Both the position numbers and the translations under genes were made by a program. This document shows, piece after piece, positions 5,258 through 19,077 of a DNA stretch of 34,019 bases (its first letter is position 1; each line of letters begins with the position of its first letter). The DNA comes from Eubacteriales bacterium (GTDB taxonomy: Bacteria; Bacillota; Clostridia; Saccharofermentanales; DTU023): contig JAQWBU010000007.1 in NCBI GenBank assembly GCA_028706195.1, positions 1 through 34,019 of the forward strand. Reading direction: 5' to 3'. Under the pieces are notes generated by a model. The model was given only the letters and a program-made list of their open reading frames with translations, was not told where the DNA came from and searched no databases.

Positions 5258-6133
5258 TCAGTTGGGCGGGTACGGCAGGGTCAGCTTGAAATAATAAATG
5301 TCCTTGCCTTCACTCCGGCGCCGGTTGATCGAACAGCGCACTTGTCCGTGTGTCTCGCAATGAAGGATCCAGGACCAGCGTTTATTCTTTTTCGTGATGA
5401 TTATGGGCTCATCACTGGTCAAAACCCGCTGGCAGGCCGGACATTTATACTCCTGCCCCCTGATTGTTGCTTCGGCGTTTCCTTCGGCTGCTTCAGTCAG
5501 CTGCCACCTTGAATCACGATTCAAAAATGGATCATAAAGGAAGGGTCGGAGAGCTTCTTTGCGCTCTTCTTCTGTTTCTGTCTTTAACAATAATGCATTT
5601 AGAATTCTGGCTGCGTAACGTGCGTCGTTGAGGGCGTCATGAAAACTGAGATCTGCCTCTATATTCAAAGATTCAAGTGCATACTCGATGGACCTTTGTT
5701 GAGAGGTCTGACCCGCTTCCGCCATGTGAGCGAAAAATACCTGCAAATTAAGGGCTTTCCGGAAAAACGATGGATCCAGCTGATGAAATTCCAAGTTTTG
5801 TTTGAGTACCTGAGGATCAGATTGCCCCCAGGAAGCCAGAATCGCGTCTGCACCGCAGAATTCCGCAAACTCAGCTGCTACCAATGGAAAAGGGTCACCC
5901 TGGCTCAGACTTTCCTGGCTGCGTTGGGTGACCCTGGCGATATATTTGTTTAATTGCTTGTATACTTGTGCTTTGACGTTGGCTGAAAATGTTTCCAGAG
6001 GTTCCACTTCTGTTGAGAGTTTAACAGCGCCGATCTCAATGATTTCAAATGGCAGTTCTGCGAGGCTTTCACTGCTGCCTGATTTTCCGGGTGCGGCGCT
6101 GTTCCACTCCAAATCAAAGACGACAAAATTCAC
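5258..6133 (-). CDS. DEDDh 3'-5' exonuclease with C-terminal zinc-ribbon-like domain
   Basis: 291 aa; 'VVFDLEWN' (ExoI), 'FHDALNDARYAARI' (ExoIII); C-terminal 'YKCPACQRVL...LHCETHGQVRC'. Confidence 0.8.
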   Translation of the reverse strand: MNFVVFDLEWNSAAPGKSGSSESLAELPFEIIEIGAVKLSTEVEPLETFSANVKAQVYKQLNKYIARVTQRSQESLSQGDPFPLVAAEFAEFCGADAILASWGQSDPQVLKQNLEFHQLDPSFFRKALNLQVFFAHMAEAGQTSQQRSIEYALESLNIEADLSFHDALNDARYAARILNALLLKTETEEERKEALRPFLYDPFLNRDSRWQLTEAAEGNAEATIRGQEYKCPACQRVLTSDEPIIITKKNKRWSWILHCETHGQVRCSINRRRSEGKDIYYFKLTLPYPPN

Positions 6134-7284
6134 TATTTACTCCCAAATAAGTTGCGGATCTTATCTACAAATCCTTTGCGCTTTTCGTAATGCTTGTCCG
6201 ACATGCTTTCCTCGAACTTGCTCAGCATTTCCTTCTGCTCATCATCGAGGTTCCTCGGAACTTCCAGTATAACGCGGAATTTGTGATCCCCGCGACCCTG
6301 ACGGTTCAGATAAGGAATTCCCTTGCCGCGTATTGTCATTACATCATTGGGCTGGGTTCCTTCTTTCAGCTTGTAAGTAACCGGGCCGTCAATGGTCGGC
6401 ACTTCAATTTCAGAGCCCAGAGCTGCCTCCGCATAAGTTATAGGAACTTCACAGAAAGTCATATTGCCTTCACGGGAGAACACGGGATGTGGACGGATAA
6501 AAATCTGAATGTAGAGATCGCCATAGGGGCCGCCATTACGGCCGGGTTCCCCTTCGCCTCTTAAAGTCAGCATCTCCCCTTCATTGATTCCCGCCGGCAC
6601 CGATACGAGGAGCTTTTTGTCTTTCATCATAGTGCCAACGCCCTTACAGGTCTTGCAGGGGTTCTCTATGATCTGACCACTGCCCTGACATTGCGGGCAG
6701 GGGCGTGTTGTCAGCATTTGGCCGAACATGGTTTGCTGTTGGACCTGTTCCTGACCGCTGCCCCTGCAGTTGGGGCAGGTCGCGGGTTCAGATCCGTCCG
6801 CGGTACGCTTGCCTTCACAGGCGGGACAGACGTCATCCTTGCGGATTTTGATCTCGCGTTCAACGCCGAAGGCAGCCTCCATGAAATCGAGGTTCATGCG
6901 ATAACGCAAATTTGCTCCCCGGGTTGGTCCTGTCGGGCGGCGCGATTGAGAGAAGCCCGAACCAAAGCCGTTAAAACCGAAACCTCCGAAGATGCTGTTG
7001 AAAAGATCTTCCAGATCAATACCGAAACCGGCACCACCGCCTTCAAAGCCGCTGGTGTCTACACCGGAATGCCCAAACTGGTCATAACGCTGTTTTTTCT
7101 CCGCGTTCGATAAAACTTCGTAAGCTTCATTCGCTTCCTGAAATTTCTCGCTGGCCTGAGGATCATCCTTGTTTACATCGGGATGATACTTTTTGGCCAG
7201 TTTCCAGAATGCTTTCTTGATCTCAGCAGAATCAGCGTCTTTGCTGACGCCTAATACTTCGTAATAGTCTCTTTTTGCTGCCAC
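6133..7284 (-). CDS. dnaJ: Molecular chaperone DnaJ
   Basis: 383 aa; J-domain with HPD, G/F region, CxxCxGxG-type zinc-finger repeats; GTG start; downstream of dnaK. Confidence 0.97.
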
Positions 7285-7298
7285 TCTTAACTCCTATA

Positions 7299-7321
7299 TT
7301 GTCTTTGCAGGGCAAAGACAA
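7299..7321 (-). promoter_or_regulatory. Perfect 10-bp stem-loop just upstream of the dnaJ RBS
   Basis: TTGTCTTTGC-AGG-GCAAAGACAA (exact inverted repeat, 3-nt loop). Confidence 0.7.
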
Positions 7322-7330
7322 GTAAAACAC

Positions 7331-7365
7331 CCGAAGAGCGATCAGGCTTCCCTGGTCGCTCTCGG
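7331..7365 (-). promoter_or_regulatory. Stem-loop between dnaK and dnaJ
   Basis: GAGCGATCAGG-cttc-CCTGGTCGCTC, 11 bp with one G-U-type mismatch, extendable by flanking A-T and CCG/CGG. Short U-containing sequence downstream on the minus strand (possible attenuator). Confidence 0.65.
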
Positions 7366-7396
7366 CATTATCATATTATATGTCAGTTTAATGCAA

Positions 7397-9235
7397 CTAC
7401 TCTTCGTCACTGCCTACGTCTTTGAAGTCAGCATCATAAGTGCCGGGCTCATTATCCGCTGCAGGACCGTCAGGCTGCTGTGTCTGTTGCTGTTGGGCTG
7501 ACTGCTGGCTCAATTTTTCGGCAACTTTGTATAGCTCCTGATCCAAAGCATCACTGTCCGCCTTCATGGTATCAAAGTCATCGCTATCGTGGCTTTTCTT
7601 CAGTTTTTCCAAGGCTGCTGTTACTGCTTCGCGATCTTCGCCTTCATAGAGCTTGCCTGTTTCTTCATCTTCCAGCAGCCGCTCTGTTTGACGGATCTTG
7701 GTCTCCGCCTCGTTTTTGATCTGTACTTTCTCGGCGCGTTCCTTATCGGCTTCGGCGAATTCTTCCGCTTCTTTTATGGCCCGCTCTATATCGTCATCGC
7801 TCATGTTACTTGAAGCAGTAATGGTGATGTTTTGCTTGCGTTTGGTCGTCAGGTCGACAGCTGTGACATTGACAATGCCGTTCGCATCGATGTCAAAGCT
7901 TACTTCAATCTGAGGCACGCCGGCGCGAGCAGGCGGAATGCCGTCGAGGAAAAATCTGCCCAGAGTTCTGTTGTCAGCGGCCATGGGTCGCTCGCCCTGC
8001 AGTATATGGACCTCAACCTGAGTCTGATTGTCGGCAGCAGTGCTGAAAACTTGTTTTTTGCTGGTCGGGATTGTGGTGTTGCGCTCGATCATACGAGTCA
8101 TGACACCGCCCAGAGTTTCCAGACCCAATGACAAGGGGGTGACATCCAGCAGGACCATCTCGTCAACATCACCGGACAGGATACCTCCCTGGATAGCTGC
8201 GCCCAAGGCCACACACTCGTCCGGGTTGATGCCCTTGTATGGCTCTTTGTTGAAGAAATTTTTCACTGCTTCCTGAACTGCTGGTATGCGAGTTGAACCA
8301 CCGACCAGGAGAATCTTGTCAATCTCGGCCGGCTGTAATCCGGCATCCTTCATGGCCGTGGATACGGGAGTCATAGTTGCTTCGACCAGATCTCTGGTCA
8401 TGTCGTCAAATTTCGCGCGGGTCAGATCCAGGTCCAGGTGCTTGGGACCATCTTCCCCTGATGAAATGTAAGGCAGGCTGATATTGCTTGTCAGCACGCT
8501 GGATAGTTCGATTTTCGCCTTTTCAGCGGCATCACGCAGACGCTGCACGGCAAACTTGTCTTTCGAAAGATCGATACCTTCGTTGTTTTTCATTTCCTGA
8601 ATCATCCAGTCAACGATGCGGTTGTCAAAGTCATCGCCGCCCAGTTTGGTGTTACCCGAGGTAGATTTAACATCAAAAACACCATCACCGAGTTCCAGGA
8701 TAGATACGTCGAAAGTTCCGCCGCCCAGGTCATAAATCAGTATTGTCTGATTTTCTTCTTTTTCCAGGCCATAGGCTAATGAAGCTGCGGTCGGTTCGTT
8801 AATAATACGATCCACTTGCAGCCCGGCGATACGTCCGGCATCTTTCGTTGCCTGACGTTGTGAGTCTGAAAAATATGCAGGAACCGTAACGACAGCTTTG
8901 GTTACGGTTTCGCCCAGATAAGCCTCTGCGTCAGCCTTCAACTTTTGCAAAATCATTGCTGATATCTCAGGTGGTGTATAAGCTTTGCCATCGATCATAT
9001 GTTTATTGTTAGAACCCATCTCACGCTTGATTGATGTAATTGTGCGATCCGGGTTACGTTGTGCTTGGTTTTTGGCTACTTGGCCAACCAGACGTTCACC
9101 TTCTTTGGTGAAAGCCACAACCGACGGGGTCGTACGTTGTCCTTCGGCGTTAGGAATAATAACTGCCTCGCCGCCTTCCATAACGGAGACAACTGAGTTG
9201 GTTGTACCTAAGTCAATTCCGATAATTTTTGCCAT
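7397..9235 (-). CDS. dnaK: Molecular chaperone DnaK (Hsp70)
   Basis: 612 aa; '[20 protein letters not shown]', '[15 protein letters not shown]', '[13 protein letters not shown]'. Confidence 0.98.
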
Positions 9236-9282
9236 ATAAATTCCTCTTTCTTATCTGATATCTAAATTCTGAAATCGCTGAG

Positions 9283-9870
9283 TTAATTCGCTACTTTCAC
9301 CATACTGTGACGTATGACGCGATCTCCTCTTTTGTATCCTTTTTGAAATACTTCGACTATTTCGTTCTCACCGGCGTTTTCATCTTCGACGCTCATAACC
9401 GCCTGATGCAAAGTCGGGTCAAACTTCTCTCCCAAAGCTTTTATTTCTTCAACACCCACCTTGTTGAGTGCGTTAATTAACTGTTTATATATTAAACTTA
9501 TCCCGGTAGCTTCGGACTCGGAAATTTCTTTCTTCGTCTCGCCTTCTATACTAAGTGCGCTGTCAAAACTGTCGAGAACAGGCAGCAGTTCGCATACTAC
9601 TGCGCAGGTTGCTTCCTGGAATAAAGATTCAAGCTCGGTTTTCGAGCGACGGCGATAATTTTCGTATTCTGCCGCAATGCGCAAATATCGGTCTTCCCAG
9701 TCACTTGCCTGCTCTTTCTCTATTTCCGGAGCCTCGGTATCCGCTTCTGCAATCAAATCCGGACTATCCGCTGAAAGATCTTCCGACTCCGGAATCTGCT
9801 GCTCCAAAATCTCAGTCTCTGTTCCCGAGTTGATCTCGGCAGAATCATTTTTCTTCTTAGATTTGCTCAT
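9283..9870 (-). CDS. grpE: Nucleotide exchange factor GrpE
   Basis: 'RYLRIAAEYENYRRRSKTE', 'VGVEEIKALGEKFDPTLHQAV', 'VFQKGYKRGDRVIRHSMVKVAN'. ATG at 9870 has a GGAG RBS and is preferred over the upstream ORF start at 9891. Confidence 0.93.
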   Translation of the reverse strand: MSKSKKKNDSAEINSGTETEILEQQIPESEDLSADSPDLIAEADTEAPEIEKEQASDWEDRYLRIAAEYENYRRRSKTELESLFQEATCAVVCELLPVLDSFDSALSIEGETKKEISESEATGISLIYKQLINALNKVGVEEIKALGEKFDPTLHQAVMSVEDENAGENEIVEVFQKGYKRGDRVIRHSMVKVAN

Positions 9871-9923
9871 TAAATACTCCTTATCTCCCACTACATTATA
9901 TTAATCCGCTTGAGTCATCCTCC

Positions 9924-9953
9924 GGTGCCTTGCATACTTTTGTGCCTGGCACC
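9924..9953. repeat. GGTGCC...GGCACC inverted repeat in the hrcA-grpE intergenic region
   Basis: GGTGCC (9924-9929) and GGCACC (9948-9953), with a partial internal copy 'tgtgcc'. Confidence 0.5.
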
Positions 9954-9964
9954 AAATTATGCAG

Positions 9965-11098
9965 TTAACGATCCAGCTCCAGTTCTTCAGATGTCTCTGA
10001 CAGGGTTTTGTTGATGAACTGAATTTGTGAAATTATTTCTCCATAACGCATACGTTTAGGCCCGATTACCGCCAGCTGACCGGAAATATTGTCGGAAAAA
10101 CGATACACGGTAGATATGAATGACATATCCTCAAGTCCCTTTAAAACAATTTCCTGGCCAATACGGAGCATGTAAGCATCTTTTTTCTGTTTCTTAGCTC
10201 CGGCTGTCTTCTTGTCGGCAGCAGAAACTGTCTCATCAGCTATGTCAGCCTGATCAGTTTGCGCCTCTTTGGCATCTTCTTCCTTTTGCATATCGCTCAT
10301 GTAGCCGGCTACAATTTGGGGTTTGTTAATAGCGTGAAAAAATCGCTGCGCTCTGTCAATGTCCTGAAATTCAGGCTGTCCAAGCAGGCGATGTGAACCG
10401 TCTATATAAACATCAAGATTATCCATTTGCTTGATACTGGTATAGGTTTCAAATGCAACCTGATTGAGTAAAGGTTCCGGTATATCAGTATCTTCAGCCG
10501 CTGCGGTGACCATGACGAGGGTAATATCGTTGAGCGGTTTTCCCTTGACAGCACTTTCTACAGCTTTGCCGATACGATTCAACTGTTCTGCATCCAAGAG
10601 GTCAGGAACGCGAATCAGACGATCGTGCACAATGCCCGCCGAGATCACTATGACCACCAGCGCGGATCCCGGTTCTATCATCAATATTTTCAACTGTTGT
10701 ATATTGGCGAAACTAAAATCCGGAGACAAAGCTACGGAAACAAAGGCCGTCTGTTCTGAAAGATAGTCGGCCGCTCGAATAATCAGATCTGAAGCCTCAT
10801 CTATCTGCTGCTCCAGATAATCACGAAATTCCGCCTGTTTTTTCAAAGGAACAGGAGGCAGTAACGGAAGATTTTCGACATATGCGCGATAACCTTTATC
10901 TGAAGGCACTCTGCCTGCGGAAGTATGAGGTTTTTCCAAATAGCCTTCTTCTTCCAGCCATGACATTACATTGCGCACTGTAGCGGAGGAAAGGTTAAGA
11001 TTATATTTATCTACCAGATACTTGGAACCGATCGGTTCGCAAATCTCTACGTAGCTGTTTACAATTGCCTGCAGAATCATTTTTGCACGGTTATCCAT
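9965..11098 (-). CDS. hrcA: Heat-inducible transcription repressor HrcA
   Basis: 377 aa; 'YVEICEPIGSKYLVDKYNLNLSSATVRNVMSWLEEEGYLEKPHTSAGRVPSDKGYRAYVE' N-terminal wHTH; 'AVIGPKRMRYGEIISQIQFI' C-terminus; CIRCE upstream. Confidence 0.97.
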   Translation of the reverse strand: MDNRAKMILQAIVNSYVEICEPIGSKYLVDKYNLNLSSATVRNVMSWLEEEGYLEKPHTSAGRVPSDKGYRAYVENLPLLPPVPLKKQAEFRDYLEQQIDEASDLIIRAADYLSEQTAFVSVALSPDFSFANIQQLKILMIEPGSALVVIVISAGIVHDRLIRVPDLLDAEQLNRIGKAVESAVKGKPLNDITLVMVTAAAEDTDIPEPLLNQVAFETYTSIKQMDNLDVYIDGSHRLLGQPEFQDIDRAQRFFHAINKPQIVAGYMSDMQKEEDAKEAQTDQADIADETVSAADKKTAGAKKQKKDAYMLRIGQEIVLKGLEDMSFISTVYRFSDNISGQLAVIGPKRMRYGEIISQIQFINKTLSETSEELELDR

Positions 11099-15661: not shown

Positions 15662-17203
15662 ATGGTGGGCACAACACGTTCCAATAAACATAAGAGATTT
15701 TCTTGTTCAAATAAAATCGCACTGTCCATCGTTGCCTTTTTCATCTTTTTAATTCTCCTGACAGCTGTTGTCCTTATAAGCGGAGAAACAGTTCTTGCTG
15801 CTGACGGTGATGAGGGCAGCATGGCTGCAGCATTTGATCCGCCCTTCAAGCTGCCGGCGGGACTTGCATTTAATGCTCCCGGGCGTCCCCTGCTCTACAG
15901 CCATAATTCTGAAATTCCCCTGGAGATCCCTGCTGCCTCACGTTTAATGCTGCTTCTGATCAGCTCCGAACAAATTACAGCTGATGAGACGATACTTATA
16001 TCAGAAGAGGCGGAAAAACTCGCAACTTTCGAAATGAACACAAATCTTAAGCTTGAGAGCGGTATGACCCTGCCTTACCGCTACCTCATGCTAAGACTGC
16101 TGATGCAAAACTCTGACGCTGCCGCGCTGGCGATTGCCGAACACATCAGCGGCGGCGAGGATGACTTTTTGGAAATAATGCAGCAAAGAGCCTCCGAACT
16201 GGGTATGATCAATACCGAATTTCACACTGTGCTTGTCTCCAAAGCAGAGCGGGAAAACCAGGCTCCTGCTTTTTTCGCAGATCCCTCAATTGACTGGGGC
16301 TCTTTTACTTATGAAAAAAACGAAAATCAGGGATTCCAGGTGATAATAGGTGGCCAGCCGGTGCCGACTATTATTCCTGACTTTCAGGATATGGAAATAC
16401 ATACAGCCAAAATCAACCTAAATGATATGTGTTTACTGGCGCAGGCTTTAAACTCCAGCAGATCAGCGCTGGATTATCTTCGTGTCACCGAACAGCTGGT
16501 TTCTGTGCGCGTGGATAGCGGTGACAGGGTAATACCGATGCGTTCGAATGTTTCCCGCTTATTCACTCTTTCCGAAGGGGACGTTGAAGCTGCTTATCAT
16601 CATCGCTCTGAACGCTTTTCGCTGACTATGAGCTTTGGCCAAAGCGATGGAGAAATCCGCATCACCACTTTGCTGCTATCAGCCAATCAAAGTCCGATGA
16701 TAGACGAAACACTGAAACTCTATGACAGTATTGATCAGTATTACCAGCGCATAGCTCTAACTGAGGCAGGCTCTCCTGTTCCCGGACACAGAGAAAGTAC
16801 AGAAAGCGGAGAGAGCTTTTCTTTGCAATATCTGGACACGGTTTATTATGTTCACCCTAAGGACAACTTTTATCTGAAAGACGATGTCATTTATGTGGGC
16901 AACGCCCCCTATTTCCTGCCTATTCAAAAGGGAAGCATGACCGGTCAGATAATTTTCGAGATGCTGGACGGTACAAGAATACCAGTCCGGGTTGGCCCTG
17001 ATCGTGACATTATTTCATCTAATACTGCTATGGCCAGGCTGGTCAGTCTGCTCTATAATAACGCGAATTTGGGCCGTTTGATTATTGGACTGGCCGTATT
17101 TATCTGCCTCATTCTCATAATTCTTTTAATCAAAGAAATTTATCTATTGCTGTACTGGCGGCGTATGCGGAGACTGGAACGCGCCGGGCACCCTGAAAAA
17201 TAG
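15662..17203 (+). CDS. D-alanyl-D-alanine carboxypeptidase (S11/PBP5)-like protein with degenerate catalytic motifs
   Basis: 513 aa; N-terminal TM/signal and C-terminal TM anchor; PBP5-like frame 'PAASRLMLLLISSE', 'LMLRLLMQNSDAAALAIAEHISGG', 'ASELGMINTEFH'. SxxK, SxN and KTG are all altered. Confidence 0.72.
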   Translation: MVGTTRSNKHKRFSCSNKIALSIVAFFIFLILLTAVVLISGETVLAADGDEGSMAAAFDPPFKLPAGLAFNAPGRPLLYSHNSEIPLEIPAASRLMLLLISSEQITADETILISEEAEKLATFEMNTNLKLESGMTLPYRYLMLRLLMQNSDAAALAIAEHISGGEDDFLEIMQQRASELGMINTEFHTVLVSKAERENQAPAFFADPSIDWGSFTYEKNENQGFQVIIGGQPVPTIIPDFQDMEIHTAKINLNDMCLLAQALNSSRSALDYLRVTEQLVSVRVDSGDRVIPMRSNVSRLFTLSEGDVEAAYHHRSERFSLTMSFGQSDGEIRITTLLLSANQSPMIDETLKLYDSIDQYYQRIALTEAGSPVPGHRESTESGESFSLQYLDTVYYVHPKDNFYLKDDVIYVGNAPYFLPIQKGSMTGQIIFEMLDGTRIPVRVGPDRDIISSNTAMARLVSLLYNNANLGRLIIGLAVFICLILIILLIKEIYLLLYWRRMRRLERAGHPEK

Positions 17204-17209
17204 TTCTGC

Positions 17210-17755
17210 TTATTTCCTGTGAAGCCAGGGTTTGATTCTATCGAAATAAAAAGCTTCATAATTCAAAAGCGCATAGCGATAGGCAAGCAGCACGATCTGG
17301 AAAGCGACAAAAATAATCAGCCAGATCAGCCATGTTTCCAGGTTTAGACGATTTACGATGAAACTGTCCAATCCGACAATCCTGATAACTGCGATCAATA
17401 TAAGACTCATTAAGCTGTGACTGATAAGGTATTGTAAAAATTTGGACAAGCCGCTCCGGTAAAGCCGGAGTATTATGAGTGGCAAAGGTCCTGCAAAGAT
17501 GGCAAAGGCGAGAGCGTGAATAACACCGGGATACATCAGACTTAAGACACTGATACCAAGTGCAAGCAGAACAGCTCCGCTGATCCGAAGTTCAAAGTAA
17601 GCTGTTGCTACTATGAGAGAAGCCAGGAATAGTAAAAAGAGGCGGCCTGTTGGCAGGACACCTGAGAGGATAACGAAAATCCAGCCCAAAGCCATTAAAA
17701 TTCCGCTTAAGGCGATTGTGTAAGAGGATCGTGAAGATTTATTATCAGGTGGCAT
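17210..17755 (-). CDS. Multi-pass membrane protein of unknown function
   Basis: 181 aa, about 5-6 hydrophobic helices; superficially like small ECF S-component/DUF2232-type proteins, not assignable by eye. Confidence 0.7.
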   Translation of the reverse strand: MPPDNKSSRSSYTIALSGILMALGWIFVILSGVLPTGRLFLLFLASLIVATAYFELRISGAVLLALGISVLSLMYPGVIHALAFAIFAGPLPLIILRLYRSGLSKFLQYLISHSLMSLILIAVIRIVGLDSFIVNRLNLETWLIWLIIFVAFQIVLLAYRYALLNYEAFYFDRIKPWLHRK

Positions 17756-17803: not shown

Positions 17804-18196
17804 TTAGCAACAAAGGCAAAGATCGCCGCCCATGCATTCGCAACAGGAGTCCGCACAACATAGACAGGTCAGCTGCTCACAGCAACCAGTGCCAGAGGAG
17901 CGGTAATAGGGCGATTGATTTTGTGGCTGTTGTTGATAAAAAGGACCCTGATAGCTGCCATAAGGGTTCTGATAAGGCGGTCTCTGGTATGGGCCCCTCT
18001 GCTGCTGACCACCTTTAGTTAACTGGTCGTAGGCGTTGTTGACTTCCTTCATCTTCTCCTCAGCCAGTTCTTTCATATTAGGATCCTGATATTTGTCCGG
18101 GTGATATTTCTTGGTTTGCTCGAGATAAGCATCACGGATTTCTTTCTCCGTGGCTCCGGGCCTGACACCTAAAACATCGTATGGATCTTTTGCCAT
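17804..18196 (-). CDS. J-domain protein with Q/P/Y-rich linker and Cys-rich C-terminal tail
   Basis: 130 aa; 'PYDVLGVRPGATEKEIRDAYLEQTKKYHPDKYQDP' (HPD present); tail 'CCEQLTCLCCADSCCECMGGDLCLCC'; RBS ggag upstream. Confidence 0.9.
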   Translation of the reverse strand: MAKDPYDVLGVRPGATEKEIRDAYLEQTKKYHPDKYQDPNMKELAEEKMKEVNNAYDQLTKGGQQQRGPYQRPPYQNPYGSYQGPFYQQQPQNQSPYYRSSGTGCCEQLTCLCCADSCCECMGGDLCLCC

Positions 18197-18225: not shown

Positions 18226-19077
18226 CTATAAGCGAGGCAGTTCTACACCGGCCAAAATACGTTCTCGGGTTCGACTCAAACCAATGGTGGCAACATTTCC
18301 TACGATAGCGCCATCGCGCTGATAAGGCAGGAGAGCCAGGAGCCGATCAACTTCTTCTTCGCATTCTTTGAGCTTTTCCTCTACAAATATCCGGCTGTCC
18401 GGCTCGGAAAATTTCAGCAGGGGATTCCATTGCTTATTATGAAGATCGTCTTCCCTATCGTCAAATGCATCCATCAGATAAATCCATTTCCCCAGAGCAA
18501 AGCCAACCTCCGGCAGCACTCTGATCAACATGTCGCGATCGGGATGATCCAGCAGCCTGGCACCCTCGGCAAAAAGCTCCGCCAAAAGTCGGCCAAAGAT
18601 GTCCGCCGCAGAGGGATCATAGTCGCCTTTTTCAATATCATTCAGTTCGCGCAATGAAGCTGCGATATTCGCAGACAAGTCCGGATAGAGTCTGCTTGCT
18701 TTTCTCCCTGATCGCCTGAGTAAAAGGCTTTGCGCCCGACCCAGAAATGGTCTTTCGTCCCGTGCGTTATCAAGAGCGGAATAGTAGGCAAGAATGATGC
18801 TGCTGTCCGCAGCAAAGTCAAGCGCTGCATGGTGCTTGCTGATCGGCTTCTTCTTAAGGGGGTTTAAAACACAGCCCTCCTGCACGATCTCACTATCTTC
18901 AAGGGATAACGACAAAAGAAGCAGCGCCAGAAAAGTCATGTCGTAAGTGACGACACTGCGTTGCAGATTACCATAACGTTCCTTTATGGTTTTGCATAAA
19001 CCACAATAAACAGAACGATAGCGGGTAAAATCACGCATCAATAATAATTCTTTTTCCGGCCGAACATAACCAAACAT
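18226..19077 (-). CDS. DUF5685-like family protein
   Basis: 283 aa; 'MFGYVRPEKELLLMRDFTRYRSVYCGLCKTIKERYG', 'VVTYDMTFLALLLLSL', 'LAYYSALDNARDE', 'GKWIYLMDAFDDREDDLHNKQWNPL'; next to a J-domain gene. Confidence 0.75.
   Translation of the reverse strand: MFGYVRPEKELLLMRDFTRYRSVYCGLCKTIKERYGNLQRSVVTYDMTFLALLLLSLSLEDSEIVQEGCVLNPLKKKPISKHHAALDFAADSSIILAYYSALDNARDERPFLGRAQSLLLRRSGRKASRLYPDLSANIAASLRELNDIEKGDYDPSAADIFGRLLAELFAEGARLLDHPDRDMLIRVLPEVGFALGKWIYLMDAFDDREDDLHNKQWNPLLKFSEPDSRIFVEEKLKECEEEVDRLLALLPYQRDGAIVGNVATIGLSRTRERILAGVELPRL

Follow-up and report, generated by a model that had tools for sequence, protein, structure and literature searches.

We propose, with a rough probability of 0.42, that Clostridia-wide a native bacterial system of cysteine S-prenylation exists in which DUF5685 acts on a dedicated C-terminal Cys-string acceptor, usually borne by a J-domain co-chaperone. 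The system is described here from a stretch of 34,019 nucleotides (the window) of a Eubacteriales bacterium (GenBank assembly GCA_028706195.1, contig JAQWBU010000007.1). If the proposal is correct, bacteria would own a form of Cys prenylation, a modification whose details have until now come from eukaryotes alone, together with a route for placing an Hsp70 machine at membranes, and the system would be a convergent bacterial counterpart both of cysteine string protein and of eukaryotic protein prenylation. The proposal also brings two families lacking a function and a membrane protein under one testable hypothesis. Our literature search returned no described function for DUF5685, which was mentioned in one paper, as a mere list entry, and never under its accession PF18937, and with the terms tried it returned no description of bacterial S-prenylation.

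From gene order, shared strand and spacing, we infer that three genes of the window make up an undescribed operon, in which DUF5685 comes first, the gene for the J-domain/Cys-tail protein stands in the middle, and a small integral membrane protein follows (Table 1). The middle gene starts 30 bases past the DUF5685 gene on the same strand. A preliminary description of this DNA had dealt with the middle gene and missed both of its neighbors. Convergent to the operon lies a gene resembling S11-type D-Ala-D-Ala carboxypeptidases (window 15662-17203; PF00768, E=8.9e-18).

Table 1. Coordinates in the window of the three genes and of the features discussed in the text.
Feature	Position	Strand	Remarks
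DUF5685 gene, first of the operon	18226..19077	minus	283 aa; PF18937 E=1.7e-71
C25xxC28 of DUF5685	18994..19005	minus	invariant in 71 sequences
C69 of DUF5685	18871-18873	minus	invariant in 71 sequences
First Asp motif of DUF5685, D103xxxD107	18757..18771	minus	invariant in 71 sequences
Second Asp motif of DUF5685, D203xxxD207xxxD211	18445..18471	minus	D203 and D207 invariant, D211 in at least 90% (71 sequences)
J-domain/Cys-tail protein gene	17804..18196 (including stop)	minus	130 aa; ORF and translation, PF00226
J-domain, residues 4-61	18014..18187	minus	PF00226 E=3.4e-16
HPD of the J-domain, residues 32-34	18095-18103	minus	
Q/P/Y/G-rich flexible linker, residues 62-104	17885..18013	minus	sequence
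C-terminal Cys string, residues 105-130, class A	17807..17884	minus	CCxxLxCLCCADSCCECMGGDLCxCC
Small integral membrane protein gene, third of the operon	17210..17755	minus	181 aa; family profile E=3e-22

The intact HPD J-domain and the low-complexity, Q/P/Y-rich linker that the preliminary description had reported are both present, and our count of the final 26 residues (CCEQLTCLCCADSCCECMGGDLCLCC) likewise gives 11 cysteines, for which the binomial chance is approximately 5e-15 at a Cys frequency of 1.2%. Comparison of five congeners yielded pS=0.70 and pN=0.078 for the tail, a ratio of 0.11, with TGT and TGC interchanging freely at its Cys codons; the corresponding ratio for the J-domain was 0.03. 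Because nonsynonymous changes are so much rarer than synonymous ones, because the Cys codons switch, and because the tail is present across the order, we conclude that it is under purifying selection as protein and that a genuine J-protein carries it as a conserved module, not a translation artifact. A phage search gave matches to the J-domain only and hence no sign of a phage origin.

The tail almost certainly belongs, in functional terms, to DUF5685. We examined 129 DUF5685 loci, leaving out four that are cut off by the end of the contig or stretch, and found a Cys tail beside DUF5685 or within the same protein at 121 of the 125 assessable loci (119 adjacent, 2 fused). Six further loci that had appeared tail-less (L035, L075, L085, L126, L130, and L134) proved to be start-codon, overlap or spacing artifacts. 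The four at which DUF5685 lacks an adjacent Cys-tail partner (L017, L018, L020, and L058) count against prenylation; at L018 a single Cys forms the end of DUF5685 itself (KSRSKKHC). Co-occurrence follows the same pattern. In the window's order, 29 of 39 genomes encode both DUF5685 and a Cys-tail protein and 10 encode neither, so that all 39 are concordant (G209, G226, and G237 were checked by hand). Among 200 evenly sampled Bacillota genomes, DUF5685 was present in 20, which places the pair in about a tenth of the sample, and carriers of the family include the gut genera Blautia, Dorea, and Faecalicatena. When class A tails (A4; the classes are described below) were searched as a profile, the same 200 genomes gave nine matches at E<1e-9, all of them within the 20 with DUF5685 (hypergeometric p=1.4e-10, a value that ignores kinship between genomes); a tenth match, in G082, was weak (E=6.7e-4). 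A scan of GTDB genome contigs returned at least 589 DUF5685 relatives, of which the best 80 were kept. DUF5685 also scored above the cutoff in our control genome, Thermotoga maritima, which means that the family extends outside Bacillota. In G226 (L224, 1535-4902), an opposite-strand gene of 557 aa, formate-tetrahydrofolate-ligase-like by eye, sits between the Cys-tail gene and DUF5685, both of which are retained.

In two genera of one family (G151 and G238), the Cys tail forms the C terminus of DUF5685 itself, the fused protein ending in ...LITTAICCDAADCDCDA[LI]ECLS[TS]GNPCEL[LF]ECFC. The operons that encode these fusions continue with a protein of 155-161 aa and a polyprenyl synthase (PF00348, E=5.8e-49), the latter an additional, more divergent copy among the three and four of the respective genomes, alongside two and three canonical copies. 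The fused loci are L176 (7553-10488, in G151) and L184 (in G238); their 155-161 aa protein is anchored, and the G151 operon also has, by eye, a prepilin-peptidase-like protein. Polyprenyl synthase reading frames near DUF5685 in G054 and G158 were not counted, as they lie kilobases off on the other strand. This gene link is seen in a single family, which counts against prenylation. A polyprenyl diphosphate synthase is encoded in the window's genome and in 18 of the 19 relatives searched, which makes a prenyl donor available.

The system does not, on the other hand, center on the J-domain: the partner also occurs in J-less, TPR-only versions, and there are fusions of DUF5685 to the tail. The usual partner consists of a J-domain, a TPR stretch, a Y/G-rich linker and the tail; judging from TPR matches in longer homologs, the TPR stretch takes the place of the window's linker in other lineages. 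HPD is found in 105 of 110 homologous partners, and the J-less partners of L011, L019, L021, and L022 retain the Cys tail (CCECMGGDFISCC). Cysteines are concentrated accordingly, with 0.18 per 100 residues in the bodies of the 110 partners versus approximately 8 in the 45-residue tail. In G151, which carries the fused form, DnaJ is the sole J-protein.

To DUF5685 we assign a fold, which very probably makes it an enzyme of the isoprenoid synthase superfamily. An AlphaFold2 model built on an alignment of 71 sequences reached a pLDDT of 95.6 and a pTM of 0.92, and when it was compared with the PDB by Foldseek, the best 50 matches were all of the isoprenoid synthase fold, among them polyprenyl, farnesyl diphosphate (FPP) and GGPP synthases, terpene synthases, MoeN5 and UbiA. 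TM values reached 0.67. The E values of these matches are modest (1.3e-3 at best), and this too counts against prenylation. Residues invariant in the 71 sequences include C25, C28, C69, D103, D107, E149, Y200, D203, D207, and N218. In a local hhalign comparison, DUF5685 aligned with squalene/phytoene synthases over 124 columns (E=2.7e-4, probability 41%), with D103 and D107 falling on their DDxxDE and D203, D207, and D211 on their NxxxDxxxD; the first of these motifs ends helix D and the second ends helix H, and DUF5685 has both. Local mode was used because the -glob option produced only terminal matches of 8 and 47 columns. Controls with reversed templates gave E values of 0.19-0.65 and known superfamily pairs 0.067-0.24, the latter worse than DUF5685 against squalene/phytoene synthases. 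An unrelated control, DUF5685 against its J partner, reached E=9e-4 over 38 columns, and for this reason the superfamily assignment is based on the fold and the motif register rather than on the score. Searching PDB sequences with the DUF5685 profile gave chance helical matches only, and a Pfam scan of the 71 members detected no other family apart from one weak match to DUF2600 (terpene synthase).

Resemblance to squalene/phytoene synthases (PF00494) could suggest a different product. DUF5685 might make a small isoprenoid by head-to-head condensation or cyclization, with the Cys-tail protein serving as a noncovalent scaffold, regulator or membrane receptor. These synthases are the top profile match, sharing the DxxxD and N/DxxxDxxxD motifs in register and in the same helix order; the third gene's fold weakly recalls an S component, a small-molecule-binding fold; and the fused operons encode a polyprenyl synthase. 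We nevertheless regard this explanation as quite unlikely, for the DUF5685 neighborhoods surveyed contain no other recurring gene for terpenoid tailoring, and this explanation does not say why the Cys tail, and not the J or TPR part, is what is kept and fused. DUF5685 differs from squalene/phytoene synthases in its lack of Pfam-level similarity, an extra beta-hairpin, its three invariant cysteines and its obligate Cys-tail partner.

Prenyl transfer is the simplest account of an isoprenoid synthase fold with intact Asp motifs that is linked in trans or in cis to a Cys string. We put the chance that DUF5685 S-prenylates tail cysteines and so tethers the J-protein to the membrane a little short of even. 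Under this mechanism, two Asp motifs that bind Mg2+ would let DUF5685 hold a prenyl diphosphate, and the enzyme would pass its prenyl group to one or several cysteines of the tail, the invariant ones near the C terminus most probably among them. The prenylated tail, on its flexible linker, would then hold the J-domain (or TPR) protein at the membrane, where the J-domain could recruit DnaK. C25 and C28 possibly form, with C69, a putative metal-thiolate site, and we speculate that a metal bound there might, like the Zn of farnesyltransferase, activate the acceptor thiol.

Among the closest parallels are ComQ-ComX and PalQ-PalX, in which the gene for an enzyme of the same fold also lies beside that of its substrate and modification occurs at or near the substrate's C terminus, where the string is likewise located here (PMC10853753, PMC13290415). 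PalQ, a trans-IDS-like enzyme, prenylates the C-terminal residue of the neighbor-encoded PalX (PMC10853753). The parallel has limits, the first of which counts against prenylation: characterized trans-IDS-like peptide prenyltransferases target Trp only (PMC13290415), whereas an acceptor Trp is not conserved here (Trp occurs in 44 of 119 tails) and Cys is always present. In ComQ/PalQ-type enzymes a conserved Gln also closely precedes the second Asp motif (PMC13290415), and at the aligned position DUF5685 has the invariant Tyr200. Both departures fall where one would expect them. Finally, the partner here is a chaperone-type protein, while theirs is a pheromone or RiPP.

Comparison extends to eukaryotic systems. 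The class A termini, -CC or -CX, recall Rab proteins, and a hypervariable linker leading to a C-terminal Cys is a further likeness to CaaX and Rab substrates. The eukaryotic enzymes, however, are heterodimers of alpha and beta subunits built on an alpha-alpha barrel, a fold unrelated to that of DUF5685, and class A tails have no CaaX box. Ydj1, which is farnesylated, sets a precedent for a prenylated J-protein. In CYSTM tail-anchored proteins a Q/P/Y-rich region likewise precedes a C-terminal Cys-rich module, but these proteins have neither a J-domain nor a prenyl-enzyme partner. The likeness to DNAJC5 was considered in the preliminary description to be perhaps only analogy, and we agree. Both proteins combine an N-terminal J-domain, a low-complexity linker and a dense Cys string of similar length, and both suggest a membrane tether for the Hsp70 system. 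In DNAJC5, which is palmitoylated, the string is internal and followed by a C-terminal domain; the bacterial string is instead at the extreme C terminus, is defined by its pairing with DUF5685, contains conserved acidic and GGD residues in one class, and occurs in proteins that sometimes lack the J-domain. Beyond the J-domain itself, there is no sign of common descent.

The order of J-domain, linker and Cys string might still mean that the tail is S-acylated or membrane inserted as in DNAJC5, independently of DUF5685, and tails of the second class, rich in Cys and otherwise mostly uncharged, would suit such a role. We consider this very unlikely, given that the obligate partner has the fold of an isoprenoid synthase and not of an acyltransferase; to our knowledge, DHHC palmitoyltransferases are absent from bacteria. 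More broadly, the preliminary description had left a choice among metal-binding, redox and lipid-modified modules, and the paired isoprenoid-synthase-fold gene, with its genomic and structural support, favors the lipid option over the other two.

Tails fall into two classes, and this division bears on a role in metal binding. At 75 loci the tail follows the class A motif, C-x-L-x-C-A-D-x-x-C-E-C-M-G-G-D-L-x-x-C-C; across 48 diverse class A tails (A4), D20, C23, E24, G27, D29, and C33 are invariant. All 75 have Cys as the second-last residue and end at the last Cys or one residue beyond it. The remaining tails are richer in uncharged residues and have their cysteines, 5-9 within the final 34 residues, at variable spacing. 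The preliminary description had named variable or absent Cys tails among homologs as grounds for refutation, and here the outcome is divided: the tail nearly always recurs (121 of 125 loci), but its Cys spacing is fixed in one class only, which counts against one fixed metal site.

A metal or Fe-S/Zn module that shares or exchanges metal with C25, C28, and C69 of DUF5685, with the J-domain used for loading in the manner of HscB, is accordingly an explanation that we hold to be unlikely. J-proteins such as HscB do act in Fe-S assembly, three cysteines are invariant in DUF5685, and the dense cysteines of class A tails, with their fixed spacing and the acidic residues among them, fit such a module; the invariant D, E, and GGD resemble a structured motif that could equally be a metal site, and tails with as many as 12 Cys exceed what a prenyl anchor needs, both of which weigh against prenylation. 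The number and spacing of cysteines vary widely, however, in the other class beside the same DUF5685, and a metal module leaves the isoprenoid synthase fold with both of its Asp motifs unexplained. We hold it highly implausible that the tail switches J-domain activity as a sensor of thiol redox state or as a disulfide relay: the dense CC and CxC pairs would lend themselves to it, but no redox partner gene recurs in the neighborhoods surveyed, and DUF5685 would be unaccounted for.

The third gene tracks the tail class. It accompanies acidic tails at 76 of 76 loci and other tails at 2 of 36, and on the DUF5685 tree, tail type switches in five supported independent pairs, with the third gene following in 4.5 of them on average and never moving the opposite way (p=0.0625). 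This is suggestive of a tie between the acidic tail and the third gene. In lineages with acidic "CADxxCEC" tails, the tether proposed under S-prenylation would involve the third gene's membrane protein. The idea that a tail of higher hydrophobicity stands in for the membrane gene was rejected, as mean hydropathy is similar (0.80 versus 0.91); what distinguishes the classes is acidic residues (1.1 versus 3.7 per 26).

The family profile that recognizes the third gene's product was built from proteins at the equivalent position in other genomes, and no Pfam family matched this product. Its AlphaFold2 model (pLDDT 92.1) has a predicted fold that weakly resembles an ECF S component: the five top Foldseek matches were all RibU, at E 0.27-0.68 and TM 0.43. 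The family also weakly matches the Hpre_diP_synt_I profile across 71 columns. Loci with uncharged tails have a different downstream gene, whose product is a short membrane protein that carries a zinc ribbon at its C terminus (KCPHC...CPxC; L003-L006, L100, L117, L119, L125, L128, and L133).

The available sequence of the window's genome encodes one other J-protein, an ordinary DnaJ (6133-7284), within an hrcA-grpE-dnaK-dnaJ cluster (window 6133-11098) that lies approximately 7-11 kb from the operon. In the relatives G201, G202, G203, G205, G221, and G230, dnaJ is on the same contig as the Cys-tail gene, approximately 10-15 kb away.
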